NCBI RefSeq assembly: GCF_000429645.1
Contig: NZ_AUCG01000022.1
Coordinates: forward strand, 1-64,000
Origin: Niveispirillum irakense DSM 11586
Lineage (GTDB): Bacteria; Pseudomonadota; Alphaproteobacteria; Azospirillales; Azospirillaceae
Length of the DNA: 64,000 bases
Reading direction: 5' to 3'
In this document: one piece after another, positions 23,964 to 58,389 of the stretch
Position numbering within the stretch: position 1 is the stretch's first letter
Layout: every line of letters starts with the position of its first letter
Program-made: the position numbers and the translations under genes
Notes under the pieces: model-generated
Seen by the model: only the letters and a program-made list of their open reading frames with translations
Told to the model about the DNA's origin: nothing
The model's database searches: none

Positions 23964-24055
23964 TATTTACCCCCCTCCGCGCAAACGGTTCTCAACCATT
24001 CGCGCCTGCCCGAAATGGCAATACTTTGCCTTCATCTGCTGCAAAAGTTCTGAAA

Positions 24056-24208: not shown

Positions 24209-24346
24209 TTCATCTCTCTCATTTTTATTACGTTAACATCGGATTTTTAGATGCTTAAGATAGAACATTTTTCAGCTTTATGTTTACAAGGGTTTTGGGA
24301 TTGGATCAAGATAAGTTTGGTTTCTGTGCGATATGCGGGGTGCGCG

Positions 24347-24760: not shown

Positions 24761-24799
24761 CAATTCAACGCACTTGTAAGAAAGAACAGGCGGCATATT

Positions 24800-26665: not shown

Positions 26666-27403
26666 TCACAGCCCCGCTACGATATCGGCGATCAGGCGGG
26701 GCCGGTGATCGGACAGGTAGAAATGCCCGCCCGGATAGATCAGCCGGCGGAACGGCCCTGTCGTATGGTCGGCCCAGCCGGCCAGTTCCGCAGCGCTGAC
26801 CAGCCCATCCTCCTGCCCGCCCAGGGCTGTCAGTGGGCAATTCAGCGGCGGGGCGTTATCGTGCTGATACCCTTCCGCCAGGGCAAGGTCGTCCCGCAAC
26901 ACGGGAAGGATGAGGGACAGGAGTTCCTCATGCGCCCGCACGGCAGCAGGGATGCCGCCATGGCGATCCAGTTCCTCCAGCAGATCGGCCTGCGCCAGAC
27001 CGGACAGGGGGGCACGGGACAGGGGCAGGTGCGGCGCCCGGAAGGCAGAACAGAAAAGATGGGTCGGCGCCCCTGCCCCCTCCGCCACCAGGGAAAGCGC
27101 TGTGCGATAGGCAAGCAGCGCGCCCAGACTGTGCCCAAACAGGGCGAAGGGCCGATCCAGCAGCGGCGCCATGGCCGCCCGCACCCCGTCCACCACCTGC
27201 GCGGGATCGGCGCAGCGGGGCGCGCCATAGGCCGCCTCCCGCCCGGGCAAGCGGATGGCAATCAGTTCCACATGGCGCGGCAGCTCCGCCGCCCAGGGCA
27301 CGAAGAAAGCAGCACCACCGCCGGCATGGTGGAAGCAGAACAGCCTGATATCCGCCTCTGGCCGGGGCTGCGGGCGGACCAGCCACAAGGGCGTCGGTGT
27401 CAC
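26666..27403 (-). CDS. Type II thioesterase of the NRPS/PKS operon
   Basis: An alpha/beta-hydrolase of about 245 residues that removes wrong or stalled acyl groups from carrier proteins. The nucleophile elbow is FGHSLGALLAYR, the acid is probably in GGQEDGLVS, and the catalytic His is in YPGGHFYLSDHR. The start is GTG 27403, which overlaps the STAS stop by 4 bp; the open frame extends further upstream but without family sequence. It is the last gene of the lipopeptide operon. Confidence 0.92.
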   Translation of the reverse strand: MTPTPLWLVRPQPRPEADIRLFCFHHAGGGAAFFVPWAAELPRHVELIAIRLPGREAAYGAPRCADPAQVVDGVRAAMAPLLDRPFALFGHSLGALLAYRTALSLVAEGAGAPTHLFCSAFRAPHLPLSRAPLSGLAQADLLEELDRHGGIPAAVRAHEELLSLILPVLRDDLALAEGYQHDNAPPLNCPLTALGGQEDGLVSAAELAGWADHTTGPFRRLIYPGGHFYLSDHRPRLIADIVAGL

Positions 27404-27735
27404 TTCAGCACATCGACCGCGGCCGCGCGGTCGGGCCGGATGGTGAACAACGCCAGAAACCCGCTGACCCGGAACACCTCCATCACCGGTGCGGCAAGGC
27501 CGGCAAGGCACAGCTTGGCCTCCGCCGCCTTCATGCGTTTGGCGGCGATCAGCAGCACCCGCAGTCCGGCGGAGGAAACATAATCAAGGCCGGTGCAGTC
27601 GATCACCAGGCCTCCCTGGCTGCCATCGGTCAGCCGCAGCACGGCCTGTTCCGCCAGGGGAGCGGTATTGCTGTCCAGGCGGCCGATGAGTGTCAGGATC
27701 GTCACGCCGTCGATCCTCTCTTCGCTAAGGTTCAT
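27400..27735 (-). CDS. STAS-domain anti-sigma-factor-antagonist-like protein
   Basis: The 111-residue protein is a single STAS domain, with the conserved phosphorylatable Ser in DCTGLDYVSSAGLRVLL. Proteins like SpoIIAA bind a partner kinase/anti-sigma factor when the Ser is unphosphorylated. No cognate kinase (RsbW/SpoIIAB) or SpoIIE phosphatase is seen in the window. It sits between the exporter gene and the thioesterase gene, so a role in controlling export or the pathway is suggested. ATG 27735 is chosen because the residues upstream are not family-like. Confidence 0.88.
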   Translation of the reverse strand: MNLSEERIDGVTILTLIGRLDSNTAPLAEQAVLRLTDGSQGGLVIDCTGLDYVSSAGLRVLLIAAKRMKAAEAKLCLAGLAAPVMEVFRVSGFLALFTIRPDRAAAVDVLK

Positions 27736-27783
27736 GTCTCCATATCCGTCATGGCAAGGGGATGCGCGGCCCACCAGCCTGCT

Positions 27784-29988
27784 TCATATCTCGATACTGT
27801 CAAGGATCGCCTCCTTCAGGGCCGCCATCCGGCCATAGGCGGTTGCCTCCACCGTTTCGCGCAGCTTAGGCGTGCTGTCCAGCAGGGCCAGGAAATGTTT
27901 GCGGTCAAGGGTCAGACACACCGTATCGGTGATGGTGCGCACGCACCAGGTGCGGGGTACGGGCTCAATCAGGGCCAGTTCGCCGAACCAGTCGCCATCC
28001 TCCATCACGCCCAGCACATGTTCCCGCCCTTCACCCCACTGGACATAATTTTCCAGGCGGCCCCGGGCGATGATGTAGAATTTATTGCCGGGATCGCCTT
28101 CCTGAAAGACGATGCGGCCGGCGGGAAAGGTTTCCGTCACCAGTTGGCCGGAAAGGGTCCGCAGCACCCCCTCGTCGCAGGCCGCCAGGAACGGGATGTT
28201 GCGCAGGCGGTCGGGGGTGATGCTGGCGGTGCCGTCCTGGATGGTGAAGCCGCTCTGCTTGGCCCAGAGGGCGGCGTAAAGGCCATCCTTTTCCAACAAC
28301 TCATCATGGGTGCCAAGCTCGGCCAGCCGGCCCTTATCCATTACCAGGATCAGATCATAATCGGTGATGTGTTGCAGGCGGTGGGTGACTGACACAACGG
28401 TCCAGCCTCCCATCACCTGTTTCAAAGTAGCGTTGATTTCCGTCTCCGTCACCGCATCCAGGGCCGATGTCGCCTCATCCAGGAACAGGACATTGGACCG
28501 GCGCAGCAGGGCGCGGGCGATGGCCACGCGCTGGCGCTGCCCGCCCGACAACAGCCCCCCTTGCGAGCCGACGCGCGTCTCGTACCCGGCCGGCAGGTCC
28601 AGGATGATATCATGCAGGTTCGCCGCCCTGGCCGCCGCCTCTACTTCCTCATCAGTGGCATCCAGCCGGCCCATGCGGATATTCTCACGGATGCTGGTGT
28701 CAAACAGGGCGGTGTTCTGCAAGACGATGCTGGTCTGCTGGCGGAAGGATTCCTCCAGCGTTGTGCGCAGGTCGGTGCCGTCATAGGCGACGATGCCCTT
28801 GACCGGGTCATACAGGCGCACCAGCAGCGACAGGACCGTGGATTTGCCGGAACCGGAACTGCCGACAATGGCCACCGTCTTGCCGGCGGGGATGGACAGG
28901 GTCACCCCGCGCAGGATCAGATTGTCCGGCGTATAGCCGAATTCCACATCCCGCAGGGTCATTTCCCGGTTAAGCGGGGCCAGCGGCTGCGCATCGGGCG
29001 GGTCCACCAGATCCGGCTTGTGGGACAGCACGCCCCGGATACGGTTAAGGCCGCCGGCCCCGTTCATCAGCAGCGGGATGGCCTGGGTCAGTTGGTCCGT
29101 CGCCCCGCCGATATTCAACAGCAGGCCGATAAAGGCGATCAGCAGCCCGGTGGTCATATAGCCGCTGGTGGCCAGCCATGCGCCCACCCCCAGCACGATG
29201 ATCTGCAGCAGGCCTGCCGCCAGCACCGCTGCCCGGCCGACCAGCGATGTCATGTAATGCGCCCGGAATCCCACCCGCCGCAATGTGTCCAGCCGGTCCA
29301 TAAGCTGGCGCATCCGCTCCCCCCGCAGGTTGAAAGTCCGGATGGCGAGATGGGTCAGGATATTTTCCTGCACGAAGGCGGCCACCTGGGCCTGCTGGTC
29401 ATCCCGTTGGCGCCCCATTGCCCGCGCGGCGGGTGAAAAGGGGCGCGGCGCCAGGAACAGCAGTGGCATCAGGCCAAGGGCGACCAGAGCCAGCCGCCAT
29501 TCAATGGCGAACAGCACGATGGTGCTGAGCGTGATGGTCATGAAGCGCATGACAAAGCTGGGAAAAGCCCGGACCAGGGCGGTTTCCACCGCCGCCACAT
29601 CGGGGCCGAAGCCGGCCACCACATCCCCCTCCGGCACCCTGGCATAAAAGCCCGGCCCCTGGGCCTGGATATGCCGGAACAGCCGTTCCCGCAGGGTGGC
29701 GGCATGGTTGGCGCCGATCCGGGCGGTGGTATAATCCTGCACCAGCCCGGCCGCACCATTCAGCGCGTAAAGCCCGCCCAGCAGCAGCAGCAATTCCACC
29801 AGAAACGCCATGTCATTCCGGGCAATGGCCCCGTCGAAGATGAATTTGTAAGTCACCGGCAGGGCCAGGTTGAACCCGACCTGGATCACCAGCCCCAGCC
29901 CCAGCAGCAGGCCCAGATGCGGCTTGGCAAAGGCGATACGGACCGCCTCCCCCAGGAACGGCACCATGGTGACCTCAGTCTTGCTCAT
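27784..29988 (-). CDS. ABC exporter (fused membrane and ATPase domains) with C-terminal cyclic-nucleotide-binding domain
   Basis: The 734-residue half-transporter has a six-helix membrane domain (about 1-310) and an ATPase (Walker A VGSSGSGKST, signature LLSGGQRQRVAIARALL, Walker B VLFLDEATSALD, His in SVTHRLQHI). A cNMP-binding-like tail (about 595-734) contains FPAGRIVFQEGDPGNKFYII and GDWFGELALIE. No peptidase C39 domain is present. It starts 33 bp after the ACP gene with a GGAGGAA ribosome site. It most probably exports the lipopeptide; similar exporters occur with NHLP-type peptide systems, which fits the small protein at 54729-54956. Confidence 0.93.
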   Translation of the reverse strand: MSKTEVTMVPFLGEAVRIAFAKPHLGLLLGLGLVIQVGFNLALPVTYKFIFDGAIARNDMAFLVELLLLLGGLYALNGAAGLVQDYTTARIGANHAATLRERLFRHIQAQGPGFYARVPEGDVVAGFGPDVAAVETALVRAFPSFVMRFMTITLSTIVLFAIEWRLALVALGLMPLLFLAPRPFSPAARAMGRQRDDQQAQVAAFVQENILTHLAIRTFNLRGERMRQLMDRLDTLRRVGFRAHYMTSLVGRAAVLAAGLLQIIVLGVGAWLATSGYMTTGLLIAFIGLLLNIGGATDQLTQAIPLLMNGAGGLNRIRGVLSHKPDLVDPPDAQPLAPLNREMTLRDVEFGYTPDNLILRGVTLSIPAGKTVAIVGSSGSGKSTVLSLLVRLYDPVKGIVAYDGTDLRTTLEESFRQQTSIVLQNTALFDTSIRENIRMGRLDATDEEVEAAARAANLHDIILDLPAGYETRVGSQGGLLSGGQRQRVAIARALLRRSNVLFLDEATSALDAVTETEINATLKQVMGGWTVVSVTHRLQHITDYDLILVMDKGRLAELGTHDELLEKDGLYAALWAKQSGFTIQDGTASITPDRLRNIPFLAACDEGVLRTLSGQLVTETFPAGRIVFQEGDPGNKFYIIARGRLENYVQWGEGREHVLGVMEDGDWFGELALIEPVPRTWCVRTITDTVCLTLDRKHFLALLDSTPKLRETVEATAYGRMAALKEAILDSIEI

Positions 29989-30021
29989 CGGTTTGGTTCC
30001 TCCGGGAGGGGCAGGGTTACG

Positions 30022-30291
30022 TTACCGCTGGGGCAGCGCCATCGCCAGATATGCTGCCAGCCCGGCAATGGTGGGATGGTCCCAGACGATGGTCGCCTCC
30101 ACCGGGATATGCAACCAATCCTCCAGCTCCGCACTCAACCCCACCGCCATGACGGAGGTGAGGCCGTAGCCGTCCATGGGCTGGTCGGGGTCGATCATAT
30201 ACGCCGGACAGCCGGTCAGGGCGGCGATCCGGTCGATCAGCCGCTGTTCGATCACCAGGGCATCGGGCGGGGCTGTGGGTGCCATATTCAT
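30022..30291 (-). CDS. Stand-alone acyl carrier protein
   Basis: An 89-residue carrier protein. The phosphopantetheine Ser lies in YGLTSVMAVGLSAELE, at the start of helix II as expected. Its ATG overlaps the stop of the fatty acyl-AMP ligase gene by 4 bp, so it should receive the acyl chain activated by that ligase and pass it to the ketosynthase of the hybrid megasynthase. No phosphopantetheinyl transferase gene is in the window. Confidence 0.9.
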   Translation of the reverse strand: MNMAPTAPPDALVIEQRLIDRIAALTGCPAYMIDPDQPMDGYGLTSVMAVGLSAELEDWLHIPVEATIVWDHPTIAGLAAYLAMALPQR

Positions 30292-32120
30292 GCTTCCTCC
30301 TGGCGGGGGCGTCGTTCCCCCACCGATAGCGGGCTTTTACCGATCATGTCGCCCAGCAGCCGCATCTGTGCCCGTAATTCGCCATAGCGGGTCTTGCCGC
30401 TGGTGGTTTTCAGGATCGCACCCGGCAGGGCGATGCGGACATGGTCCAGCGGCAATTCACAGGATTGGGCGGCAACCGTGCGGGCCGCACGCGCCAGGGC
30501 CTGAAGGCTGGATTCTGTTTCCCCATCGGGCTGCAGGATCAGCTTGCGGTGGCTGCTGGCAAGTTCCAGCACCGCCACACAACGCTCCCGCCCCTCTCCC
30601 GCCCCCTCTGGCATGACCATGGCAAAGACGGCGGCATCGCGGATTTCCGCCAGGGCGGCGCGCAATGCGTCTTCCACATCATGAGGATAGAGGTTGCGGC
30701 CATTAACAATCATCATTTCCTTCAGCCGGCCGGTGACCTGGATGCCGCCATCCAGCAGATAGCCCAGATCGCCGGTACGCAGCCACGGACCGGGATCGGC
30801 CTGTGGGCCGGCAATGCGGGCGCCGAAGGCGGCGGCCGTGGCGCCGGGATCATTATGGTAGCCATCGGCAACATGCGGCCCCACCACCCAGATTTCCCCC
30901 ACCGTGCCGTCGGGGCAACGGTGTTGCGTTGCAGGGTCCACCACGGCCAGCCGTGCCCCTGTGGGGGCCCAGCCGCTGCACACGGCGGTCAATGATGGCT
31001 GGCCCGGTGCCGGTGGTATGGCCCGGCCCTGGGCCAGGGCGTCGGCGGCAATGGTGCGCAGTGTCGCCCCCTGCCCGGCCCGGCTACCACCGGCCAGCAA
31101 GGTCACCTCCGCCATGCCATAGCAGGGATACATGGCGTGCGGCTGGAACCCGGCCACCGCGAAATGGTCGCAGAAGCCCTGAATGGTGGTGGCGCGCACC
31201 GGCTCCGCCCCGTTGAAGGCGATCTTCCAGCAGGAAAGGTCCAGGCCCGCCGCATCCTCGGCGCTGGTCCGCTCCACACAAAGCCGATAGGCGAAATCCG
31301 GCCCGCCGGCCAGCACGGCGCGGGCATCGCTGATGGCCCGCAGCCAGCGGATGGGCCGCTTCAAAAAGGTGGTGGGCGCCATGGTGAGGGCAGTCCCGCC
31401 GACATGCAGCGGCTGAAGCAGGTTACCGATCAGGCCCATATCATGATAATGCGGCATCCAGTTGACGCCGATCAGGTGCCGGTCCATCGCCATTGCCTCG
31501 GCGATCATCAACCCGTTGGCGCGCAGGTTGCGGTGCCGCACGACCACGCCCTTGGGCCGGCTGGTGGAACCGGACGTATATTGCAGAAAGGCAATATCCT
31601 CCCCCACCGGCGCTGCCGGCACCGGGCGGCCCGTCCCCTGGGCCACCAGTTCATCCACGCTTAACAGATCCAGCCCGGCCAGGGCGGGGGTGGCTGCCAT
31701 CAACCGGCCGATGGCCTCCCCCTGCCCGGCGGCGGTCAGGATCAACCCTACGCCGGCATTGTCGGCCAGGGCGCCCAGGGTGGTTGCCGGGCGGCCCGGC
31801 CGGGGCATGGCGGCGGGAATGGCGATGACCCGCCCGGCCAGACACCCCCAGAAGGCGACCAGGAAATCCAGCCCCGCCGGGAACAGCAGCAGCGCCATGC
31901 GCGGCTGGTCCGGGCGGGTGGCGAAATGGCGGTCCAGGGCGGCGGCTACGGCATCGGCACGGCCCATCAGCCCGGCATAATCCAGCCGCTCCACCACACC
32001 CGTTTCCAGTTCCGGCAGATAGGCATAGGCGGGGTGGTCAGGCTGCAGCCCGGCATGGGCGCGCACAATATCCAGCATGGTGCCGTCATGATGGGGGTGT
32101 GGCGACAAGGCGGGGATCAT
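30288..32120 (-). CDS. Fatty acyl-AMP ligase (FAAL)
   Basis: A 610-residue adenylate-forming enzyme. The core motif is LQYTSGSTSRPKGVVV, followed by the FAAL-typical NWMPHYHDMGLIG, the YGMAEVTLL motif and the late motif RTGDLGYLLDGG with NLYPHDVEDALR. FAALs load a fatty acid directly onto a carrier protein without CoA release; the ACP encoded next is the obvious acceptor. It overlaps both neighbours by 4 bp. In the scheme proposed here it starts the assembly line, although it lies near the 3' end of the operon. Confidence 0.93.
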   Translation of the reverse strand: MIPALSPHPHHDGTMLDIVRAHAGLQPDHPAYAYLPELETGVVERLDYAGLMGRADAVAAALDRHFATRPDQPRMALLLFPAGLDFLVAFWGCLAGRVIAIPAAMPRPGRPATTLGALADNAGVGLILTAAGQGEAIGRLMAATPALAGLDLLSVDELVAQGTGRPVPAAPVGEDIAFLQYTSGSTSRPKGVVVRHRNLRANGLMIAEAMAMDRHLIGVNWMPHYHDMGLIGNLLQPLHVGGTALTMAPTTFLKRPIRWLRAISDARAVLAGGPDFAYRLCVERTSAEDAAGLDLSCWKIAFNGAEPVRATTIQGFCDHFAVAGFQPHAMYPCYGMAEVTLLAGGSRAGQGATLRTIAADALAQGRAIPPAPGQPSLTAVCSGWAPTGARLAVVDPATQHRCPDGTVGEIWVVGPHVADGYHNDPGATAAAFGARIAGPQADPGPWLRTGDLGYLLDGGIQVTGRLKEMMIVNGRNLYPHDVEDALRAALAEIRDAAVFAMVMPEGAGEGRERCVAVLELASSHRKLILQPDGETESSLQALARAARTVAAQSCELPLDHVRIALPGAILKTTSGKTRYGELRAQMRLLGDMIGKSPLSVGERRPRQEEA

Positions 32121-33115
32121 GCGGGCACCGGCAGGGCTATGGGATGGATCAGGGATGCCATGGCCTCCACCGCAGCAATCCGGCGGGCATGGTCGTGCCA
32201 GAGATGGAGCAGGATCACCTCATCAGCCTGGAAGCGGGCCGCCAGGTCCAGCACCTGGGCGCGGCATTCATCCGGGGTGCCGGAAATCACGACGCGCATA
32301 TCCTCCTTCAACCAGCCTTCGACCAGATGGCGCTGTGCCGCCGCACCCTCTTCTGTGGGCGCGCAGATGCAACTGGCGGCGATGGCCACGCGGCCGCCAG
32401 TCTGCCGGGCGCGGAAGGCGGCAGGCACCGAAGGGTCCAGCCGGCTGCCACGGTGGAACAGGGAATAGGCGTAATGGGCGCCCTGATCGGCAGCGGCTGC
32501 CGCACTGCCGGGGCCGGACCCCATCACCCAGACCGGCGGGGGTGCTGCGAAAAGCGGGGTGGCAGCATTCGCAAACCGGTGGCCCGGCGGGAAGCGCCCG
32601 TGCAGATAATCCACCAGCCGCGCCAGCCGGGGGGCAAACCCGGCCATCAGGCCGGCAATGTCGGGCGCCTCGCCCTCCCCTTGCTGCCCTTCCGTCCCTG
32701 CCAGGGCGGCCAGCGCCATATTATCGGCCGGCACGCCGGCGCAGACACCCAGGTCGATCCGGCCCGGTGTCAGTGCCGACAGGGTGCGGAAGGTTTCCGC
32801 CACCAGCAACGGGTTGCGGATGGGCAGCAGCAGGGCGGCAGTGCCGATACGCAAACGCCGCGTGCGCTGCGCCAGGGCGGCCACCATTACCTCAGGTGCT
32901 GTCCAGCAGAAATGCGCTTCATGATGTTCAGACAACCAGAGCCGGTGATAGCCCAGCCTGTCCAGCCGGTCGGCCAGATCCAGACTGTCGGCAAGCACCT
33001 GCGGCCCCGACTGGCCAGGGGCGACAATGCCGAAATCCAGCACGGATTGCAGCAGCGGCGCCGGGGGTGATGGGGGGGATGATGCGTGTGGCACTGGGGG
33101 AGATGATGCGGTCAC
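32117..33115 (-). CDS. Luciferase-like flavin-dependent monooxygenase (MsnO8-type LLM class)
   Basis: The 332-residue TIM-barrel protein shows the LLM signature: LDFGIVAPG at the first strand, YHRLWLSEHHEAHF, LRIGTAALLLPIRNPLLVAETF and RIDLGVCAGVP. It needs reduced FMN and O2 and usually hydroxylates a carbon substrate. Related MO domains are fused to beta-amino fatty acid synthases of microginin type, where they hydroxylate the alpha carbon. Here it is a separate protein in the same operon. That role is inference; a different oxidation of the acyl chain is equally possible. Confidence 0.88.
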   Translation of the reverse strand: MTASSPPVPHASSPPSPPAPLLQSVLDFGIVAPGQSGPQVLADSLDLADRLDRLGYHRLWLSEHHEAHFCWTAPEVMVAALAQRTRRLRIGTAALLLPIRNPLLVAETFRTLSALTPGRIDLGVCAGVPADNMALAALAGTEGQQGEGEAPDIAGLMAGFAPRLARLVDYLHGRFPPGHRFANAATPLFAAPPPVWVMGSGPGSAAAAADQGAHYAYSLFHRGSRLDPSVPAAFRARQTGGRVAIAASCICAPTEEGAAAQRHLVEGWLKEDMRVVISGTPDECRAQVLDLAARFQADEVILLHLWHDHARRIAAVEAMASLIHPIALPVPA

Positions 33116-34164
33116 GCCGTTACCTCTTCCAGGCTGCGGGCTTGCATGGCGGTGGATTGCAGGATGCGGTCAAGGTCAGGCTCCACGGCGCTGAACGTGT
33201 TCCAGAACAGGACGCGCCGGTTGGTCAGCCCGCCATCGGCCAGCATCGCCAGGGTCTTGGCGGTATAAGTGGTTTCAGTGCGAAAGGCGCCCAGACCGGC
33301 CACGTCTTCGGCGGCCCTGTCCGCCACCGGGCCGGCCAGCCCGTAACCGGGGCCGGCGAAATCATCCACCCAGAGCAACTCCCCCCAGCGGGGCGGGGCG
33401 GTCAGCCCATGGCGGCGCAGCAGCCGGTCGGTCTCGTGGGCCATGCGCACCATCTTGCGCGGGCCGGTGACGATCATCGGCACCATGCGCACCGCCACCA
33501 TCCGCACCGGCACCCCGGCCAGGGCAAAGCCCAGATAGACGCCAGCCGCCGTGGCGCAGGTGCCGGTCGGGACCACCACATCATGGGGTAAGGGCAGCCT
33601 TCCGGCCTGGATGTCGGCCGCCACCTCCAGCGCGCCCTCCACCACCCCCATCACGCCCAGCGGGTGGTTGGACCCTGGCGGTATCCAATAGGGGCGGTTG
33701 TGGCCCAGCCGACCCAGCCGCGCCCGCAGCATCGCCAGCGGCACGGCGGGAAAGCTGGCACAGCGCAGCACCTCCATCCCCAGGGCCGGCAACAGCCGCC
33801 GGTTCAGCGCGATTTCCGCCACGTCCGGCTGGGGCGTCAGCACAGCGCGGGTGCGGAACCCGGCCTGCCGGCCAAAAACCGCCGTGGCCAGCACCTGATG
33901 GCTGCCATAGGGCCCCATGGTGGCGACCCCGTCGGCACCTTCGCCCTGCGCCTGCCCCAGGAAAAATTCCAGGTTGCGCACCTTGCTGCCGCCATAGACG
34001 GGATTGGTCAGGTCGTCTCGCTTGACCCAGAGCGCGCTCTGCCCCCAGCGGCGGGCCAGGGCCGGCTCCTCCGTCACCGGGGTGGCGCTGGCCAGCAGGT
34101 CCAGGGGGCGGACGAAACCGTCCAGATCCGGCACAAGGCGGGGCAGATGGCGGGTGCGGCTCAC
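33112..34164 (-). CDS. PLP-dependent enzyme, D-cysteine desulfhydrase / ACC deaminase-like (fold type II)
   Basis: A 350-residue protein with the PLP-binding Lys in GGSKVRNLEFFLGQA and a phosphate-binding loop PTGTCATAAGVYLG, as in D-cysteine desulfhydrase and 1-aminocyclopropane-1-carboxylate deaminase relatives. The start is GTG 34164, which overlaps the preceding stop by 4 bp. In the pathway it could make or remove an unusual amino acid for the Cys-like NRPS module, or act in resistance; the sequence does not decide. The family assignment is firm, the substrate is not. Confidence 0.85.
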   Translation of the reverse strand: MSRTRHLPRLVPDLDGFVRPLDLLASATPVTEEPALARRWGQSALWVKRDDLTNPVYGGSKVRNLEFFLGQAQGEGADGVATMGPYGSHQVLATAVFGRQAGFRTRAVLTPQPDVAEIALNRRLLPALGMEVLRCASFPAVPLAMLRARLGRLGHNRPYWIPPGSNHPLGVMGVVEGALEVAADIQAGRLPLPHDVVVPTGTCATAAGVYLGFALAGVPVRMVAVRMVPMIVTGPRKMVRMAHETDRLLRRHGLTAPPRWGELLWVDDFAGPGYGLAGPVADRAAEDVAGLGAFRTETTYTAKTLAMLADGGLTNRRVLFWNTFSAVEPDLDRILQSTAMQARSLEEVTA

Positions 34165-48000: not shown

Positions 48001-51000
48001 CCAGCAGCACGGGGGCCAGCAACTCTGTCCGGGGCAGCAGCAGGCCCACCGGGCCGGGGGGCACCTCGGCTGCCAGGATAAGGGCGGCTATGGCATCGGA
48101 CCAGCGGTCCAGCATTGCCCGGTCCAACCGCTGCTGCCCATCCAGAATGACGGCGGGGCCGACAGGATCAGCCCGCAGATGGGCCTGCCAGCGCGCCACC
48201 AGTGGCAGCGCCCGCCGTCCCCCGGTCCCGTCCAGGGCCCAGCGGGCGGCGGCATCGCCCTGCCCATGGCGCAGGGACAGGTCGCCGCCCGCTGCCAGCA
48301 GCGACAGCAGGTCCAGATAATCAGCCATCAATCGTTCGGCCCGACCCCCGCCAAACAGGGCGGCATCGTAATCAAGCTCCACCGTCAGGCTGCCGCCACG
48401 GTCCACCACATTGCAGGCAAGGTCAAAACGACCGCTGCCGGCATCGGGACCGGCGGTGGGCGGGCGCAGCCGGGCCGTCACCCCCGTGCCAAATGGCAGT
48501 TCAGGCGGCACCCGATCCAGGTTGAAAGTGACGGGCACCAAAGGCGGCCGGGCCGGATCGCGCCGCACGGCCAGATCATCCAGCAGATGGGCAAACGGAT
48601 AATCGGCATGGTCCAGCGCGTCCAGCAGGGTGCCGCGCACCCTGTCCAGCAGGGCATCGGTCCCCTTGGTCGCGTCGGGGCGCAAGCGCAGCGGCAGCAG
48701 ATGGGTGCAATAGCCCACCACCTGTCCCATCCCCGGCCCCGCGACTGCACGCCCGGTATAAGGCACACCGATCACCATATCGGCAGCGCCATGGCGGTGC
48801 AGCAGCCAGACGAAACCGGCCAGCAGCACCGACAATAGCGACCCCCGCCCGGCCAGGGCGCGGCGATGCAGCCCTGATGTCACCCCTTCCCCTACCGGGC
48901 AGACCAGCCGCCCGCCGGTAAAGCCGCGCACCGGCGGGCGTGGGGCGGCGATATCCAGGTCCAGCCCGGCCGGCGCATCGCGCAAATCCTGCATCCACCG
49001 GTCACGCGCGTTCTTCCAGCGCCCCTCCGCCAGGGCGGCCCGGTGCCCGTCCAGAAGGGTGCGCAGCGATGGGGCGGGTGGCAAGGGCTGCCCGGCATAG
49101 GCTGCCGCGATCTCCCCCGCCAGAATCTGGAGCGACAGCCCGTCCAATGCCGCATGATGGCCCAGCAGCAGCAAAACCCGGTCCTCACCCCCCAGATGGA
49201 ACAAGGTGGCGCGCAGCAGCGGCGGGCGGGCGGGATCAAAGGGCACGGCCAGCCGTTCTGCCACCGCCGGGGCCAAACCGTCCGCCGCGATGGTTGCCTG
49301 CTCCAGCGGCAAAAGGCCGGCCGGGGCGGGAGACAGGGTGCCGGCCAGGGGGTCGGGCACGGCCCACAGCCCGTCATGCCGGGCGGCCACCGTCGCCACG
49401 GAAGCCGCCAGCCTTTCGCCGTCCAGGGGGCCGGTCAGGTCCAGCAGCAGCGGAAGGGTATAAGCAACGGCACCGGCCGGGTCCAGTGTCGCCAGCGTCA
49501 GCAACTGACGCTGCGCCAGGGTCATGGGCAGGCTATCTTTGGGCGCCGGTTCGGCAGGCGCCGCATCCAGGATGCCGCCCTCGCGCAGGGCCGCCACCGT
49601 CTGCGCCACGGCATCGACCAGCCGGTCGCAATCGGCGTCTGTATGGGCACTGGACAGGAAACAGGTCCGCCCCTCCCACACATAGATGCCGCGCAGCAGC
49701 AGATGGTAGAAGAACAGGTCCAGATTGCGGGTGAAGACGAAGCGGAAGACGGAGCCGAACCGCGCAACCCGGATGGGTGTTCCGGCCAGCACTGCGTCCA
49801 GCCGGTCCTGCAGACGGGCGGCGCGCGCGTTCAGGTCGGTGTAAAGCGCATCACCCCGCCGCTCAATCTCCGCCAACACGGCCAGACAGGCCTCAATGGT
49901 CAGCGGGTTCTTGTTGAAGGTGCCGGCGAACAGCGTGGTCTGGGCCGTGGGCGCGCTGTCATCGCCATAGTGCCAGACGCCGCCATCCACCGCCGCCATC
50001 ACATCGGCCCGGCCGGCCAGCGCCCCGATGGGCAAGCCGCCCCCCAGGATTTTGCCATAGGCAACCAGATCCGCCCGCACGCCGAAATAGGCCTGTGCCC
50101 CACCTGCGGCGATGCGGAAGCCGGTGATCAGTTCATCAAATACCAGCAACGTGCCCGCCGCCTGGGTCAATCCCCGCAGGCGGCGCAAAAAATCATCCGG
50201 CTGTAGATCGGGCCGCCGGCTCTGCACCGGTTCCACCAGCACGGCGGCGACTTGCCCCAGCAGGGGGGCGAGTGCCGCCAGACTGTCCGCCGTGCCATAA
50301 TCAAGCACCAGCGTATCAGCAACGGCCCCCGGCGCCACGCCGGCAACCAGCGGCACGGCGCCGGCCTCAACATTCCCGTCCGCTGCTGCTTCGGCCAGGA
50401 TACCGTCGAAATGGCCGTGATAGGCGCCGCGGAAGATCACCACCTTGGTCCGGCCGGTGACGGTGCGGGCCAGACGCAGCGCCACCATAACGGCTTCTGT
50501 CCCGGAATTGAGGAACGCTACCCGGTCCTGGCCGGACAGGCGGGCGATCCGCTCCGCCGCCTCCCCCGCCCTGTCGGATTGCGGCCCCAGGCGCAGGCCC
50601 CGCGACAGGCTCTCCTGCAGGGCCATATTCAGAAAGTCGGGCATATGCCCGAACAGATGGACGCCGAACCCCATGGAAATATCGAGATAGTCGTTACCGT
50701 CCACATCCTCCATCCGCGTGCCGGCGGCTGACCGGCAGGCAATGGGATACAGCATCTCCTTGATCGAGGGGCGGAAGCCGGCACTGGCCCGGCTATCGGC
50801 CAGAACAGTGCGATAACGGTCGGCCAGCGCCCGGGACCCGGCGGTACGGCGCGTATAGGCCGCGACCAGGGCCGCGATATGCTGGCGCTGGCGCGGGCCG
50901 GCGGGATCGTCGACCACCGCACGGGGGACCGGCAGGGGGCGCAGAGGAACGGCCGGCGCCAGCATGGGCGGGGCCGGTGTGGGCGGGGCCGCCTGCGGGG

Positions 51001-53938
51001 CGCATCGGCTGGCCAGATATCCGGCCAGGGCATCCAGGGTGGACAGTTCCTCAAAAAAGGCGCGGATCGGGATCTTCACCCCGAAGGCCGCTTCGATCCG
51101 CTGCGCGGCGGTCACCAGGACCAGGCTATCGGCGCCCATTTCCAGGAAGGGGGTGGCCGGGTCCACGCGCGGGGCCGTCGTTTCCAGGATATCCGCGACG
51201 ATGGTGCGCAACCGATGCGAAATATCCGCCCCCTCCCGCACCGCCGGCGCCACGCTTGCAGCGGCAGGGATCGCCGTTGACGCGGCTGGCGGGGGGACAG
51301 GGGCGGGGACGGTGCCGACTGTCACCGTGCCATCGGCCAGCAGGGGGAAGGATGTTTCCTCAAACGGGTAGAGCGGCAGGGGCGACCGGCTGTTTCCCGG
51401 CCCGTCCACCCCGTTCCAGTCCGGCACCAGCCCGGCGGTCCAGACCGCACCCAGGGCCGAAAGCAGGGCCTGCGCATCCTCGCGCCCCCGTATCAGGCTG
51501 GGTACAACCGGCAGATCGGGGACGGTCAGGGGCACCAGCCGGGACAAAACCGCCGCCGGCCCGATCTCCAATCCCAGCTTCACGCCCGCAGCCGCCAGGG
51601 CGGCCACCCCATCGCCAAACCGGACGGGATCGCGCAGATGGCGCACCCAACTTTCCCCCGTCAGCACCGTGCCCACGGGCAGGATGGTGCCGGTGCGGTT
51701 ACACAGCAGGGGCAGGCGCAGCGGGTCGAAATGGAAGCTGGCAAGCACATCGCGGAACGGGTCCAGAACCGGGTCCATGGCCGGGGAATGGAAAGCGGCG
51801 GAGACAGGCAGCCTTCGTGCGGTGATCCCGGCATCGGCAAGGCGCCGCAGCGTCTCCTCCAGCGCGTCGGCGGCGCCGGCAATGGTCAGGCTGCCAGGAC
51901 CATTTTCCACCGCGATGACGATATCGGGGCTAAGCAGGGGGGGCACCGCCGCCGGCAGGCCGGTCACCGCCGCCATGCCGCCAGGCACGGCACGTTCCGC
52001 CATCAGCCGGCCGCGCGCAGCCACCAGCTCCATCGCCCGCTCAAACGGCAGCGCACCGGCCACCACGGCGGCCGCGTAATCACCCAGACTATGGCCGATC
52101 ACAATGTCAGGCGTGATCCCCCATGCCGCCCAATGGCGGGCCAAACCGACCTGCAGCGCCAGCATCAGCGGCTGGGTCAGCTCCGTCCGGTCAATCTCCG
52201 CCCCCGTGGTCAGCAGGTCCAGCAGCGGCAGGCCGGTGACCTGCGCCGCCCTTGTCAGCGTCTCGCGGATGGCGGGGGACATCTGCACCAGCCCGCGCGC
52301 CATGCCGGCAAACTGCGCCCCCTGGCCGGAAAAAAGGAAGGCCGTCATCGGCCGGCGGCGGGGGGCTTGGCCTAACGCCACCTCTGGCGGGCGTTCCCCT
52401 TGGGCCACCCGTTCCAGTGCTGACGCCATATGCTCTGCATCAGTAGCGGCGATGGAAAGCCGATGACGCAGGGGGCTACGCGACCGGTGGCTGGCCCGCG
52501 CCAGCGTAGCGCCGGCATCCGGTTGCCGGCGCACCTGTGCCGCCGTGGCAGCCGCCAGATGCATAAGCGCGTCCGGCCCAGCGGCTGACAGGACCAGCAA
52601 TTGCGGCCAGGCGGGTGCCGGGATCATATGACTAGCCGGGGGGCTGGCCGCGATCAGATGGCAATTGGCGCCGCCAAAGCCAAAGGAACTGACGGCCCCC
52701 ACCGCTGGCCGCCCCTGGTCGGGCAGGCTTTGGGGCGCGGTGGGAACGGTAAGGTTCAGGCCAGCGAAATCAATATGCGGGTTGGGTGCCGCAAAACCCA
52801 GGCTGGCCGGCACCTGCCGATGGTGCAGCACCAGGGCCAGCTTGATCAGCCCGGCAATGCCGGCCGCTGCTTCCAGATGGCCGATATTGGTCTTGACCGA
52901 TCCAACCGGCAGCGGCCCGGTGCGGCCCGGTGCCTGCCCCAACGCCCGGCCGATGGCCTTGGCCTCGATCGGATCACCCAGCAGAGTGCCGGTGCCGTGG
53001 GCCTCCACATAATCGACGGTGGCGGGCTTTATCCCGGCTGTCGCCAGCGCCTGCCCGATCAGGGCTTCCTGCGCCGGGGTGCTGGGTGCGGTGATGCCGT
53101 TGGACTGGCCATTATGGTTAAGCGCGGACCCCAGGATCACTGCCAGCACCCGGTCGCCGTCGCGCTGTGCATCCGACAGGCGCTTCAGCACCACGGTTCC
53201 AGCCCCTTCCCCCCGCCCATACCCGTCGGCAGCGGCGGAGAAGGTCTTGCAGCGCCCATCTGCCGCCAGCATCCGCGCGCGGGAAAAGGCGACCGACGGG
53301 TCGGGCCGCAGCATCAGCGAGACGCCGCCGGCCAGCGCCAGCCCACATTCCCCCGCCCGCAGCGCGGCACAGGCCAGATGCACCGCGATCAGCGCAGACG
53401 AACAGGCCGTATCCACCACCAGACTGGGGCCGGTGAAACCCAGCAGATAGGAAATGCGGTTGGCCAGGACGGCCGTGGAATGGCCGGTCGCGGTTGCAGG
53501 GCCTATGGCAGAAAGATCGGCATGGGCGCCGCCAAACTCGCCGTTGCTGGCGCCCATGTAAACGCCGACCGGCTGGCCCTTCAACTCCCAACCAGGGATG
53601 CCGGCATCCTCCAGCGCCCACCATGCAACCTTCAGCGCCAGACGCTGGCGCGGGTCCATGCCGCGTGCCTCCCGCGCGGACAGGCCAAAAAAGGCGGGAT
53701 CAAACAGGTCCGCCCCATCGATGAAACCGGCATGGCGGGTGATTATGCGACCGGCGGCGGCGGGATCAGGGTCATGCAAGGCGGCACCGTCCCAACGGTC
53801 GGGCGGCACATCGCGCAGCGCAAATTCACCCGCGCATAACAGCGACCAGAACGCATCCGGCCCCACAGCCCCCGGGAAGACGCACCCTATCCCGATAATG
53901 GCGATCGGTTCCTGGGGATGATGCGTCGGTCCGTCCAT
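45050..53938 (-). CDS. Hybrid PKS-NRPS megasynthase: KS-AT-ACP-aminotransferase-C-A-T-E
   Basis: The largest gene of the operon, 2,962 residues. KS: Cys179 in DTACSSAL, His in EAHGTGT and NIGHLEA. AT: Ser617 in GHSLGDY; AAFHSP in place of HAFH fits malonyl-CoA. There is no reductive domain. ACP: Ser938 in MGADSLVL. A class III aminotransferase follows with PLP Lys1296 in AYGKILGGGLPIG, converting the beta-keto group to an amine as in iturin/mycosubtilin enzymes. The C domain has HHAALDG (about 1595). The A domain has FTSGSTGQPKP; its code by eye is D-L-T-K-V-G-H-I-G-K, identical to the published Asp code. The T Ser is about 2455. The last domain is epimerisation type (HHWLVDAVSCALLLEDL, ELEGHGR, TVGWFT). 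Start ATG 53938; a TTG at 53959 overlaps the previous stop. Confidence 0.96.
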   Translation of the reverse strand: MDGPTHHPQEPIAIIGIGCVFPGAVGPDAFWSLLCAGEFALRDVPPDRWDGAALHDPDPAAAGRIITRHAGFIDGADLFDPAFFGLSAREARGMDPRQRLALKVAWWALEDAGIPGWELKGQPVGVYMGASNGEFGGAHADLSAIGPATATGHSTAVLANRISYLLGFTGPSLVVDTACSSALIAVHLACAALRAGECGLALAGGVSLMLRPDPSVAFSRARMLAADGRCKTFSAAADGYGRGEGAGTVVLKRLSDAQRDGDRVLAVILGSALNHNGQSNGITAPSTPAQEALIGQALATAGIKPATVDYVEAHGTGTLLGDPIEAKAIGRALGQAPGRTGPLPVGSVKTNIGHLEAAAGIAGLIKLALVLHHRQVPASLGFAAPNPHIDFAGLNLTVPTAPQSLPDQGRPAVGAVSSFGFGGANCHLIAASPPASHMIPAPAWPQLLVLSAAGPDALMHLAAATAAQVRRQPDAGATLARASHRSRSPLRHRLSIAATDAEHMASALERVAQGERPPEVALGQAPRRRPMTAFLFSGQGAQFAGMARGLVQMSPAIRETLTRAAQVTGLPLLDLLTTGAEIDRTELTQPLMLALQVGLARHWAAWGITPDIVIGHSLGDYAAAVVAGALPFERAMELVAARGRLMAERAVPGGMAAVTGLPAAVPPLLSPDIVIAVENGPGSLTIAGAADALEETLRRLADAGITARRLPVSAAFHSPAMDPVLDPFRDVLASFHFDPLRLPLLCNRTGTILPVGTVLTGESWVRHLRDPVRFGDGVAALAAAGVKLGLEIGPAAVLSRLVPLTVPDLPVVPSLIRGREDAQALLSALGAVWTAGLVPDWNGVDGPGNSRSPLPLYPFEETSFPLLADGTVTVGTVPAPVPPPAASTAIPAAASVAPAVREGADISHRLRTIVADILETTAPRVDPATPFLEMGADSLVLVTAAQRIEAAFGVKIPIRAFFEELSTLDALAGYLASRCAPQAAPPTPAPPMLAPAVPLRPLPVPRAVVDDPAGPRQRQHIAALVAAYTRRTAGSRALADRYRTVLADSRASAGFRPSIKEMLYPIACRSAAGTRMEDVDGNDYLDISMGFGVHLFGHMPDFLNMALQESLSRGLRLGPQSDRAGEAAERIARLSGQDRVAFLNSGTEAVMVALRLARTVTGRTKVVIFRGAYHGHFDGILAEAAADGNVEAGAVPLVAGVAPGAVADTLVLDYGTADSLAALAPLLGQVAAVLVEPVQSRRPDLQPDDFLRRLRGLTQAAGTLLVFDELITGFRIAAGGAQAYFGVRADLVAYGKILGGGLPIGALAGRADVMAAVDGGVWHYGDDSAPTAQTTLFAGTFNKNPLTIEACLAVLAEIERRGDALYTDLNARAARLQDRLDAVLAGTPIRVARFGSVFRFVFTRNLDLFFYHLLLRGIYVWEGRTCFLSSAHTDADCDRLVDAVAQTVAALREGGILDAAPAEPAPKDSLPMTLAQRQLLTLATLDPAGAVAYTLPLLLDLTGPLDGERLAASVATVAARHDGLWAVPDPLAGTLSPAPAGLLPLEQATIAADGLAPAVAERLAVPFDPARPPLLRATLFHLGGEDRVLLLLGHHAALDGLSLQILAGEIAAAYAGQPLPPAPSLRTLLDGHRAALAEGRWKNARDRWMQDLRDAPAGLDLDIAAPRPPVRGFTGGRLVCPVGEGVTSGLHRRALAGRGSLLSVLLAGFVWLLHRHGAADMVIGVPYTGRAVAGPGMGQVVGYCTHLLPLRLRPDATKGTDALLDRVRGTLLDALDHADYPFAHLLDDLAVRRDPARPPLVPVTFNLDRVPPELPFGTGVTARLRPPTAGPDAGSGRFDLACNVVDRGGSLTVELDYDAALFGGGRAERLMADYLDLLSLLAAGGDLSLRHGQGDAAARWALDGTGGRRALPLVARWQAHLRADPVGPAVILDGQQRLDRAMLDRWSDAIAALILAAEVPPGPVGLLLPRTELLAPVLLGCWKAGRAWMMVEPGTPPARAALLLRHAGCTLALAAEGQGTAADACPILPVPPCPPAEGGQALGVDWAVPAPDAIAYILFTSGSTGQPKPVAVPHRAVEWYLEGLLARTALPAGLSYGLVSALAADLGLTATLPALFHGGSLCILSEAAARDPGLMLEALRRWPVDLLKIVPSHLDALLSGEADPALLPRRLLVLGGERASPALLRRLDGMMPASLRVMNHYGPTETTIGVAMGDWQRGADHLTLDAPLPGARLALLGEEGEPVPPGTTGRLYIGGAQLALGYIGLAAETGARFQPVAQSGIDGPLYDTGDLARLDAQGRLEIVGRGDDQVKIRGHRVEPGEVAASLRTLQGVGAAAVVAVPHPTLGPVLVAHVVPAAPERVIDPDSLLAALRGRLPEPMLPARIMICQALPLTANGKLDRAALPVPDWAAPTWGQTDADPAATDMENRLLCVWRALFARPGIGRHDDFFALGGDSILGIRMVARLHQDGLLLKAADLYRHPTVAALAPLIRPAGLEAEQGLLTGPVPLLPSQQRWLSLGGALRPHANLSLLLDLAADITPDRVLAAFDRLIAHHDGLRLRARVDGAEGAGIVQFYAPPAPPPLHPIPDGPDRSASLDRLQALADPTETPLVLGWLEGGRGQLLIVLHHWLVDAVSCALLLEDLARLLRDPAASLGAKTLSLRQWGQGLAAYADTAPVRDQMDYWALCTDLPPPALPERPGTASDGQGMERVTGTALTMAQTSDVLSGPAIQAGLEMEDLLLAALTLAMGRLTGEALLFVELEGHGRTPPDGMPDPARTVGWFTARHPAWFDLTGVEEGEAAMAVRDQRLSIPNRGQDYGLLRWLGPAPLRQTLAAGHHPAVGLNWLGRMPAVTDAPFTLVSWRPGCPLRGAERAADLPRPHALAVEVMLVEGRLRLDLFHDSARFDPAVMEKLVADMAATLLRLASLAPAAMAPTQTAPPLSAPSSPLALDADDLAALAASL

Positions 53939-53955
53939 CGGCGCCCCGTCAGCGA

Positions 53956-54639
53956 TCAAGGCTTCTGGTGTCCGATATGGCGCAGGATGGATGTTTCCGT
54001 CTCCAGCAGCGCATCATGGATGCCGGCCCAAATCTGTTCCCCCTCCTCCGCGCCATAGCCAGAGACGATACGGCTTTGCAGATTGCCCACCAGTTCCAGA
54101 TCGGCAATCTGGTCGCCCATGGCGAACCCATGCACACGGGTGGCACCCGCAAAGGTGCCGTAAAGGGTGAAAGGGCCGCCTGGCATCACAGCAGCGACAC
54201 GGCGCACACCGTTTAAAAACTGCCCCGCCCCGCTGGGCGCGACCTTGAGATCGACATAATAGAGATACTCGGCCGGCTGCTCACGCGAGGGCGGCATCGA
54301 CAGGCCAAGATCGATCCGGTTCAGGACGGATGTATTCATATCCAGGACACAGCCCTGGAAATCCCGGAGCTTCACCACCCCATCGCTGCCATAGACATCC
54401 GTCATGACGCGGTCGAGCGACAGCATCTGGTCCATGGCGCCCAGCCGGTCGAGCGGAATGATGATATAGACACCCAAGGACGGGCCGGCGACCGTGGCAT
54501 AGGCGCTCCATTCCATCCGCGACGGATGTTGCTGGTAAGCAAAAGCGACCTGACGCGCCAGATCCTTGAAGTCTGAATATTTCTCACGCCGTATGGTGGC
54601 CCGCACAAAGACACAGAGCGGCGCCGGAAACGTCCACAT
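53956..54639 (-). CDS. Unknown 227-residue protein in the lipopeptide operon
   Basis: I do not recognise this protein. It has no signal peptide or membrane segment. Two alternating strand/helix halves (starting CVFVRATIRREKYSDFKDLA and YLYYVDLKVAPSGAGQFLNG) suggest two ferredoxin-like or dimeric alpha/beta-barrel-type repeats, and the C-terminus is acidic and helical. It is the second gene of the operon, separated from the 75-residue protein gene by a strong hairpin, and its stop overlaps a TTG of the megasynthase frame. The position suggests a pathway-specific accessory, possibly a partner of the small protein. The ribosome site is weak. Confidence 0.75.
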   Translation of the reverse strand: MWTFPAPLCVFVRATIRREKYSDFKDLARQVAFAYQQHPSRMEWSAYATVAGPSLGVYIIIPLDRLGAMDQMLSLDRVMTDVYGSDGVVKLRDFQGCVLDMNTSVLNRIDLGLSMPPSREQPAEYLYYVDLKVAPSGAGQFLNGVRRVAAVMPGGPFTLYGTFAGATRVHGFAMGDQIADLELVGNLQSRIVSGYGAEEGEQIWAGIHDALLETETSILRHIGHQKP

Positions 54640-54685
54640 CGATTATTCGTCCGTTGAATATTGGACCCATGATTCTGAACCAACC

Positions 54686-54722
54686 GCGGAAGGGCGCACG
54701 ACACCGCCGTGCGCCCTTCCGC
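54686..54722 (-). promoter_or_regulatory. Perfect 15-bp hairpin between the small leader-like gene and the rest of the operon
   Basis: The arms 54686-54700 and 54708-54722 are perfect 15-bp complements rich in G+C, with a 7-base loop. The hairpin begins 7 bases past the stop of the 75-residue gene. Downstream on the transcript is GGTTGGTTC rather than a T-run, so it is more likely a partial terminator, processing site or 3'-end stabiliser than a full terminator. Confidence 0.75.
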
Positions 54723-54728
54723 AGAGGC

Positions 54729-54956
54729 TTACTTCTCAAGCTTGAGAAGGATGGCGCCGCTCCAGTCTGCACCGGCATTGGCAACATGCACGTTCAGGCA
54801 GTTGGTCGACTCAACCCACTCCAGGCTGACAACGGCATTGCCGATGTCAGTCCCATCCGCCTTCAGGGTGGCGCTCGGGTCTGCGAGCAATTTTGCCCGG
54901 TAGGAGGGATCCTTAATCGCACGCCCCAGCGCCGCCAGAATGGCATCGTACAACAT
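54729..54956 (-). CDS. Small nitrile-hydratase-leader-like (NHLP-type) protein, 75 residues
   Basis: The protein contains AIKDPSYRAKLLADPSATLK, which matches the leader motif DPxFRxxLLxDPxAAL of NHLP-type peptide precursors. VSLEWVESTNCLNVHVANAG follows, comparable with the V-x-V-VEN/D-T-x-x-x-H-L-V stretch of nitrile hydratase alpha subunit and NHLP leaders. No Gly-Gly cleavage site is seen and the tail after this region is only about 13 residues, with one Cys in the whole protein. It may therefore be a leader-like carrier or regulator, not a classical precursor. GAGGTG stands 4 bases before ATG 54956. It is the first gene of the lipopeptide operon, and a 15-bp hairpin follows it. Confidence 0.85.
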   Translation of the reverse strand: MLYDAILAALGRAIKDPSYRAKLLADPSATLKADGTDIGNAVVSLEWVESTNCLNVHVANAGADWSGAILLKLEK

Positions 54957-58197: not shown

Positions 58198-58389
58198 GGC
58201 CGTGGCAACAATCCCATCACGGAAAACATGCCTTTCCAACCGATAAGGAAAGGCTGACATGCTGCCATCATTGGTACCATCCGCCAGAGCCCGATACCTA
58301 GGGCAATTTTTGCCCCTATCCGCTCGCACCGGGTAAAAGGCGGCGTTCCCTGCCCTGCCCTGCCAGGCCAACTGGCGGAAAAGCGCCAT

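Follow-up and report, generated by a model that had tools for sequence, protein, structure and literature searches.

A fourteen-gene operon of Niveispirillum irakense predicted to make a short beta-amino lipopeptide with a hydroxyl on a glutamine-like residue

The gene cluster described here, on a 64,000-nucleotide stretch of Niveispirillum irakense DSM 11586 (positions 1 to 64,000 of contig NZ_AUCG01000022.1; the whole stretch is called the window), resembles known synthetases of beta-amino lipopeptides. Microginin-type clusters share with it a fatty acyl-AMP ligase (FAAL), an acyl carrier protein (ACP), the domain order KS-AT-ACP-AMT-C-A-T (ketosynthase, acyltransferase, ACP, aminotransferase, condensation, adenylation, thiolation) and a small number of modules. 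The puwainaphycin synthetase likewise has a separate FAAL and ACP and one polyketide synthase (PKS) module whose aminotransferase leads into a non-ribosomal peptide synthetase (NRPS) module, but it also has an extra reducing PKS module, an oxygenase fused behind the aminotransferase and a longer, cyclic peptide (PMC4219810, in excerpt), whereas the window has three residues, a stand-alone luciferase-like monooxygenase (LLM) of the MsnO8 type, an interface-type domain and orphan genes. In iturin and mycosubtilin synthesis the acyl ligase and the KS-AT-ACP-aminotransferase-C logic recur, but a single protein there unites the ligase, the PKS, the aminotransferase and the first NRPS module (in part PMC4219810); the window differs in its separate FAAL and ACP, its three residues and its TauD tailoring. 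Judged from the sequence, we put a probability of roughly 0.62 on the reading that the operon serves to produce and export a short beta-amino lipopeptide with a hydroxyl on a glutamine-like residue. The cluster is probably a complete, undescribed gene set for a small fatty-acid-tailed peptide; a search of open-licence papers gave, among the matches listed, none naming such a cluster, in line with an earlier reading of the DNA (the original prediction) that had taken it to be undescribed. While the kind of compound is known, the product, the hydroxylation target and the accessory gene set are apparently new.

The cluster comprises 14 genes, all on the minus strand, which run from position 54956 down to 26666 in the open reading frames of the window, and all of its frames are unbroken. 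As the original prediction had it, most neighbours are joined by 4-bp overlaps (10 of the 13 junctions); the other three junctions are gaps of 9, 33 and 89 bp, the 9-bp gap widening to 48 bp if the STAS gene begins at its first ATG. With a start at GTG 27403, the thioesterase gene overlaps the STAS stop by 4 bp. The G+C content is 68.2% in the cluster, 59.6% in the left flank and 60.6% in the right flank. Upstream of the first gene, a promoter scan found two promoter-like sites (shuffle mean 0.8) and Rfam gave no match. In the order of transcription, the genes are as follows.

54729..54956, minus strand: P0004, 75 aa, first gene, a distant member of the NHLP clan (nitrile-hydratase-leader-like) by sub-cut-off matches to Frankia_peptide and NH_RiPP_Os17
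53956..54639, minus strand: P0005, 227 aa, possibly a tandem dimeric alpha/beta-barrel (ABM-like), from a poor structure model and weak similarity
45050..53959, minus strand: P0001, 2969 aa, megasynthase KS-AT-ACP-AMT-C-A(Asp)-T-E, where E is epimerisation (Pfam, motifs, A code, E clade)
43962..45053, minus strand: P0008, TauD-family Fe(II)/2-oxoglutarate dioxygenase, predicted beta-hydroxylase of the P0002 residue (TauD 1.4e-45, triad)
40054..43965, minus strand: P0002, 1303 aa, NRPS I-A(Gln-like)-T-TE with an interface-type (I) N-terminal domain and a terminal thioesterase (TE) (Pfam, motifs, trees, A code)
35342..40057, minus strand: P0003, 1571 aa, NRPS C-A(Cys-like)-T-C (Pfam, A code, motifs, tree)
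34161..35345, minus strand: P0006, 394 aa, rare unnamed family accompanying FAAL genes (homologue search)
33112..34164, minus strand: P0007, pyridoxal-phosphate (PLP)-dependent enzyme of the D-cysteine desulfhydrase/ACC deaminase type (PALP 1.5e-24; PDB 4d8t 1.6e-28)
32117..33115, minus strand: P0009, LLM of the MsnO8 family (TIGR03558, 191.3 bits against a cut-off of 166.95)
30288..32120, minus strand: P0010, FAAL (PRK05850 3.6e-112, 375.6 bits, under the cut-off of 775)
30022..30291, minus strand: P0011, ACP (PP-binding 5.4e-15, GLTS motif)
27784..29988, minus strand: P0012, ABC exporter with a C-terminal cNMP-binding domain (Pfam)
27400..27774, minus strand: P0014, STAS-domain protein of the anti-anti-sigma type, the 14th gene (STAS 4.5e-19)
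26666..27403, minus strand: P0013, type II thioesterase, likely GTG start at 27403 (Thioesterase 7.7e-47)

A FAAL-type starter and an ACP, as in beta-amino lipopeptide synthetases, are present in P0010 and P0011, and profile and PDB matches agree with the lipoinitiation predicted originally; fatty acyl-AMP ligase structures are among the 15 PDB matches listed for P0010. The first module of P0001 has the order KS-AT-ACP-aminotransferase and then C in one protein, with no KR, DH or ER domain by Pfam. Its KS motif retains the Cys and two His, its AT the Ser and its aminotransferase the Lys, and the AFHS of the AT is of the malonyl type. Pfam and motifs thus bear out one malonate extension with beta-amination. 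In a domain tree, the C domain of P0001 pairs with the post-aminotransferase C domain of Planktothrix (90/94). The exporter and tailoring enzymes that had been expected were also found, namely P0012, whose best NCBIfam models are MsbA-like and below their cut-offs, and the TauD, PALP, LLM and thioesterase proteins. The original prediction presupposed active key domains; in the KS, AT, ACP, aminotransferase, T, E, TE, TauD, PALP and ABC domains the catalytic motifs sought are present, and the N-terminal C-like domain of P0002 lacks HHxxxDG.

The A-domain codes, extracted against a verified PheA yardstick, are DLTKVGHIGK in P0001, DLYDFSLIWK in P0003 and DAWQFGLIQK in P0002, which we read as Asp, Cys-like and Gln-like, respectively. 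Because the Cys-like code has Asp in place of the usual Asn and the operon encodes a PLP enzyme of the beta-replacement type, 2,3-diaminopropionate (Dap) is possible at P0003. The first C domain of P0003 has the motif HHLILDG, which differs from the heterocyclisation pattern, and a thiazoline is therefore not expected. The last C domain of P0003 reads DHAAADG here, having lost the first His, and HHIATDG in Undibacterium. The terminal E domain of P0001 falls within the E clade (100/100), while the first C of P0003 belongs to an eight-row clade (100/99) whose members include C domains of L. boryana and M. ishizawai located right behind E domains, in agreement with the D-configured Asp of the original prediction.

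These features suggest how the line may work. P0002 would come last because it carries the TE, the E domain of P0001 means that the next C must accept a D-residue, and the last C of P0003 can serve P0002 since the C-like domain of P0002 itself is dead; the placement of TE, E and C domains thus gives the module order P0001, P0003, P0002, and the three amino-acid modules in the sequence Asp - Cys-like - Gln-like stand as predicted. The sequence itself shows which genes are present, how their domains are ordered, the motifs and A codes they carry, the dead domain with its clade, and the synteny; from these we infer the residues, the hydroxylation site, the 2-hydroxyl, the export and the final structure as follows. 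P0010 would load a fatty acid onto P0011; P0001 would carry out a single malonyl extension, convert the 3-keto to a 3-amino group with its built-in aminotransferase, add Asp and epimerise it to D. P0003 would add the Cys-like residue (Cys or Dap), and its last C would couple the chain to the Gln-like residue on P0002, where the non-condensing N-terminal domain would act as an interface docking P0008. P0008 would hydroxylate the beta-carbon of the T-bound Gln-like residue, and the TE would release the chain. The product would be a 3-amino-acyl (perhaps 2-hydroxy, through P0009) - D-Asp - Cys/Dap - beta-hydroxy-Gln peptide, linear or cyclised, which P0012 would export, while P0013 would edit and P0014 may regulate.

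The 2-hydroxylation by P0009 is a guess. In the puwainaphycin subtype (and in microginin) the oxygenase is fused behind the aminotransferase; in P0001 the aminotransferase match extends to residue 1458 and the C domain starts at about 1471, and Pfam gave no luciferase-family match in this protein. P0009 stands alone and matches PDB 4us5 (4.6e-26) better than PuwE (6ket, 7.6e-8). If it did place a 2-hydroxyl on the 3-amino-acyl head, the short linear peptide could be a peptidase inhibitor of the microginin or bestatin kind with a zinc-binding warhead, the mode by which microginins work. The short assembly, the 3-amino acyl start, a luciferase-like enzyme within the operon and the weak kinship to the PuwE oxygenase domain speak for this idea, while the pass of P0009 in the MsnO8 model, its better match to 4us5 and the lack of fusion to the aminotransferase, unlike in the puwainaphycin synthetase, leave it on the unlikely side. 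It concerns function and is compatible with the proposed beta-hydroxy-Gln lipopeptide. A Planktothrix plasmid carries a microginin-like FAAL-ACP-PKS-aminotransferase-NRPS cluster near DISARM genes (L009:3152-31979), with the same general build as microginin-type clusters and the window; its A codes differ, and counterparts of P0005, P0006, PALP and TauD were not found there at E 1e-3.

The predicted hydroxylation site follows from the N-terminal domain of P0002, in which HHxxxDG is replaced by SALCADG here and by SALC(A/G)DA in two Undibacterium clusters (three of three clusters read). P0008, encoded next to it, has an HxD/E...H triad, with HNE at 135 and DNMLVAH at 323. Comparators were NRPS clusters around TauD relatives in a plasmid collection (86 records matched, best 40 of 86 considered). 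The motif is likewise missing from the first C-like domain of the NRPS directly behind TauD in B. japonicum, in A. oryzae, where the TauD is a fused one, and at two places in L. boryana; by pattern search only, the same is true of Leptolyngbya NIES-3755, and a motif-less domain lies in an unannotated frame of T. variabilis, one methyltransferase gene past a fused TauD that has an ordinary C domain in front. This T. variabilis plasmid stretch (L072:13866-16868) is an unlisted NRPS region of two open pieces in one frame, with an interface-type domain (PALCADS) behind C-TauD and methyltransferase genes. Outside the cluster family, dead post-TauD domains thus number six, and five of them have readable A codes: DLTKIGHIGK and twice DLTKIGHVGK, which we read as Asp, and DLTKVGEVGK and DATKVGEVGK, which we read as Asn-type; the sixth, T. 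variabilis, gave no code.

A tree of 51 domains places all seven dead domains, namely that of the window, two from Undibacterium and those of four comparators, on one side of a branch supported at 96/99, and all members of this clade stand behind TauD enzymes. Two of the four dead comparators are long-branched; when four long-branched rows including these two were dropped together with the motif columns, the remaining five dead domains still grouped (100/98). Two rows of B. japonicum show a D....D pattern of the heterocyclisation type and group apart (100/100), and the label "dead" covers only the seven rows that lose both His in another pattern. Four further rows, outside the dead group, have lost one of the two His: the last C of P0003, B. 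japonicum 40-496, T. variabilis 1794-2256 and J. lividum 6-482.

antiSMASH 8 lists interface domains alongside siderophore beta-hydroxylases (PMC12230676, in excerpt), and the dead post-TauD domains agree with these; in the beta-hydroxy-Asp siderophore pairs a TauD enzyme is, as here, followed by a C-like domain without HHxxxDG before an A domain (PMC12971057 and PMC12230676, in excerpt). P0002 has such a motif-less domain before its A domain, in a clade with post-TauD domains, although the comparators were picked by their position behind TauD. It departs from the siderophore pairs in its Gln-like rather than Asp- or His-specific A domain (DAWQFGLIQK), in the absence of siderophore genes from the cluster and in a preceding C domain on a separate protein. 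Interface domains were reportedly defined by Reitz et al. in 2019. With a Gln-like residue following the interface domain here, the hydroxyl is assigned to that residue, and P0008 is predicted to partner the Gln-like module of P0002 and hence to give beta-hydroxy-Gln. That residue is already known from a lipopeptide of Streptomyces sp. XY006, which is larger, has other residues and carries its fatty acid on Thr (PMC10172682, in excerpt); the words hydroxylase and TauD are absent from the text of that paper. The original prediction had put the hydroxyl on Asp. The sole TauD gene is flanked by the genes of the Asp and the Gln-like synthetases, and the domain phylogeny pairs it with the latter; the outline of the predicted product is right, while by the interface-domain clade the position of its hydroxyl was probably wrong.

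Several points weigh against the beta-hydroxy-Gln product. The Gln-like code is one position off the Gln code and the Cys-like code two off the Cys code. The comparator clusters (six, plus H28) are a small set picked by TauD similarity. The stand-alone TauD genes of A. oryzae and M. ishizawai precede an NRPS in which the C domains retain both His, and they adjoin Asp modules without an interface domain. The TauD tree leaves interface-paired and other enzymes mixed (three changes of label, a number as low in 40 of 500 shuffles); it joins the window and four Undibacterium-type enzymes to the stand-alone L. boryana enzyme at only 88/89, and on an Asp or Gln target it offers neither clear support nor clear contradiction. 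In published siderophore synthetases, TauD domains are said to be always adjacent to Asp-selective A domains (PMC8949500, in excerpt), and P0008 has the Asp module of P0001 on its other side.

Some of these points favor another account, in which P0008 acts on the Asp of P0001 to give D-beta-hydroxy-Asp and the dead domain of P0002 is a structural leftover. T-bound Asp is the substrate of the TauD enzymes in siderophore and syringomycin pathways (PMC8949500 and PMC7100376, in excerpt), the P0008 gene overlaps both of its neighbours, and in A. oryzae and M. ishizawai stand-alone TauD genes neighbour Asp modules that have no interface domain. However, a leftover would not be expected to persist, and the dead domain is kept in all three clusters read and belongs to a clade that, among the 51 domains compared, is found only behind TauD enzymes; moreover, the C domain ahead of the Asp A domain in P0001 is ordinary and catalytic (HHAALDG). 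We consider Asp hydroxylation unlikely.

Relatives of the cluster were sought in a genome collection with the P0006 family, where 71 stretches matched the pattern (own-genome records possibly left out); as a marker, P0006 would miss clusters that lack it. The scan yielded ten loci, five of an Undibacterium type and five from Burkholderia. Counterparts of all 14 genes occur together and nearly collinear in Undibacterium pigrum (L012/L030-L032), U. sp. TS12 (L011/L033/L034/L040), U. umbellatum (L014/L035/L036) and a Burkholderiales metagenome-assembled genome (MAG; L013/L037/L038), and the clustering is thus not due to chance. Identities in these four range from 31 to 63% across genes: 44-45% for P0001, 42-43% for P0002, 48-49% for P0003, 50-53% for P0004, 51-52% for P0005, 51-53% for P0006, 61-63% for P0007 (the best conserved gene), 54-56% for P0008, 50-52% for P0009, 41% for P0010, 40-50% for P0011, 58-59% for P0012, 31-36% over part of the length for P0013 and 41-43% for P0014. 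Orthologues of P0004 were found in four of seven genomes searched. A fifth relative, a cut MAG, has P0003, P0006, P0007, P0009, P0010 and P0011 on the locus, and a separate contig carries P0005. The dead domain of P0002 is shared by U. pigrum and TS12, the two in which both features were read, and their A codes are DLTKIGHIGK, DLYDFSLIWK and DAWQCGLVQK, identical to those of the window at 9, 10 and 8 of 10 positions for the Asp, Cys-like and Gln-like domains, respectively.

The Undibacterium-type clusters differ in that P0004 comes after the exporter gene, while STAS stands beside the ABC gene on the opposite strand. In U. pigrum there are in addition genes for a phosphopantetheinyl transferase and, divergent from P0005, for a SpoIIE phosphatase and an HATPase (L030:5556-8186, with STAS inside the cluster), none of which has a counterpart in the window; a partner-switching control of the lipopeptide cluster by SpoIIE, HATPase and STAS is possible. 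U. sp. TS12 has RND-like pump genes, as judged by eye. Neither the sharing with Undibacterium nor the STAS-domain gene had figured in the original prediction.

The cluster is rare: closer to home, the own genome alone carries P0006 among 59 relatives, among 82 genomes of the order and among 385 sampled genomes of the class, and the cluster is present in 1 of 11 genomes of the genus, again itself. P0006 occurs in 7 of 43 genomes of the genus Undibacterium and in 1 of 399 genomes of the Burkholderia order, the latter being the centre genome itself. In the plasmid collection P0006 matched only its Burkholderia stagnalis relative, and P0005 had no match. Such a scattered occurrence in distantly related groups hints at horizontal transfer. 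The presence in a single genome of the genus, together with one dead C domain and the loss of the first His in the last C of P0003, could also point to a cluster that is silent or degenerate and yields no product; with the other motifs intact, the frames unbroken and the whole set, dead domain included, conserved in distant bacteria, we find this very hard to credit.

A lipopeptide metallophore, in which the hydroxy acid, amine, carboxylate and thiol or amine bind a metal, is a further alternative. Interface domains and beta-hydroxylases are described as siderophore-associated (PMC12230676, in excerpt), and the Cys-like residue could bind metal. Pfam and NCBIfam, however, revealed no receptor, reductase or metal transporter among the 14 genes, nor among the nine scanned proteins that border the cluster of U. 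pigrum, and the predicted product has a single hydroxy-acid site; a metallophore thus appears quite improbable. A siderophore locus, a candidate prompted by the TauD gene, was dropped as the main reading for the lack of an uptake gene among the 14. The TonB receptor gene at 17250-19529 sits beside a family-2 glycosidase; this pair (14529-19529), in which the glycosidase has a malectin domain, looks like sugar uptake rather than siderophore uptake.

Three conserved proteins, P0004, P0005 and P0006, are without a convincing family. P0004 matches Frankia_peptide (1.7e-6; 28.6 bits against a cut-off of 48) and NH_RiPP_Os17 (4.4e-6; 26.7 bits against 40). An ordinary NHLP-type RiPP (ribosomally synthesised, post-translationally modified peptide) precursor was considered and rejected, as the leader scores are under the curated cut-offs and there is no variable core, conservation being even along the length (20/37 and 18/37 in the two halves). 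The poor model of P0005 has two ferredoxin-like units, and its weak similarity to ABM-type oxygenases or cyclases is at a level attainable by chance. P0006 has no Pfam or NCBIfam match at E<=10, its profile has none in PDB, and its model is poor (pLDDT 50.7; best Foldseek E 0.76); for a SelO-like kinase, suggested by a shared N...DG...D motif, the hhalign match is not significant (probability 1.4%, E 0.036, 47 columns around that motif). A bolder and tentative idea, which we hold to be less likely than not, is a new lipopeptide family in two proteobacterial classes in which the interface/TauD pair has shifted from Asp to a Gln-like residue and P0004, P0005 and P0006 perform a tailoring or carrier step new to non-ribosomal pathways.

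If the beta-hydroxy-Gln lipopeptide reading is true, a compact and genetically approachable beta-amino lipopeptide pathway would be added, and an interface-domain/TauD module known for Asp (and His) in siderophores could serve a Gln-like residue, which would change genome-based prediction of hydroxylation sites. The three families without convincing assignment would also be tied to lipopeptide biosynthesis.

Matches at the Burkholderia loci are limited to P0006, FAAL, ACP and PKS parts, with P0006 relatives of 31-35% identity beside FAAL-PKS genes; L016-L020 have at least these four in common. On the B. stagnalis plasmid (L007:15006-33698), the P0006 relative accompanies genes for an asparagine synthetase, an HMGL-like protein, an amidohydrolase, an aconitase and a FAAL-PKS-thioesterase protein, and this cluster, which differs from that of the window, appears to encode an unnamed lipid pathway with the P0006 orphan family. 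Two other genomes of the same genus as the window, G004 and G006 (loci L061 and L062), have different PKS genes whose aminotransferase domain resembles the one in P0001 at about 51-52%. A Janthinobacterium plasmid (L076:10167-30933) with SbnA/SbnB, two TauD, FAAL, ACP and large NRPS/PKS genes seems to be another lipopeptide locus with diaminopropionate genes.

Next to the cluster, at 21589-26653, are MBOAT and GDSL genes on the minus strand and SxtJ-like and carbamoyltransferase genes on the plus strand, the carbamoyltransferase gene ending 12 bp from the end of the cluster thioesterase gene, tail to tail. In the 18.0-18.5 kb downstream of fliX in four relatives, no match at E 1e-10 was obtained to the solute-binding-protein or carbamoyltransferase genes, or to the thioesterase, exporter, P0006 or P0005, and the sole match was a 29%-identical TonB receptor in two of the four; the absence of cluster matches places the cluster in a variable region. 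On the other side, a 607-aa frame (57778-59601) has FliX as its C-terminal part (residues 469-603); a FliX gene beside the cluster fits the alphaproteobacterial origin named in the original prediction. In five relatives, stops interrupt the match to the first 400 residues of the frame, while the portion matching FliX, starting at about residue 464, stays open in seven, with a stop in the longer match in three. The first part of the frame may be antisense to a plus-strand gene at 58441-59622, in which case fliX likely starts further downstream.

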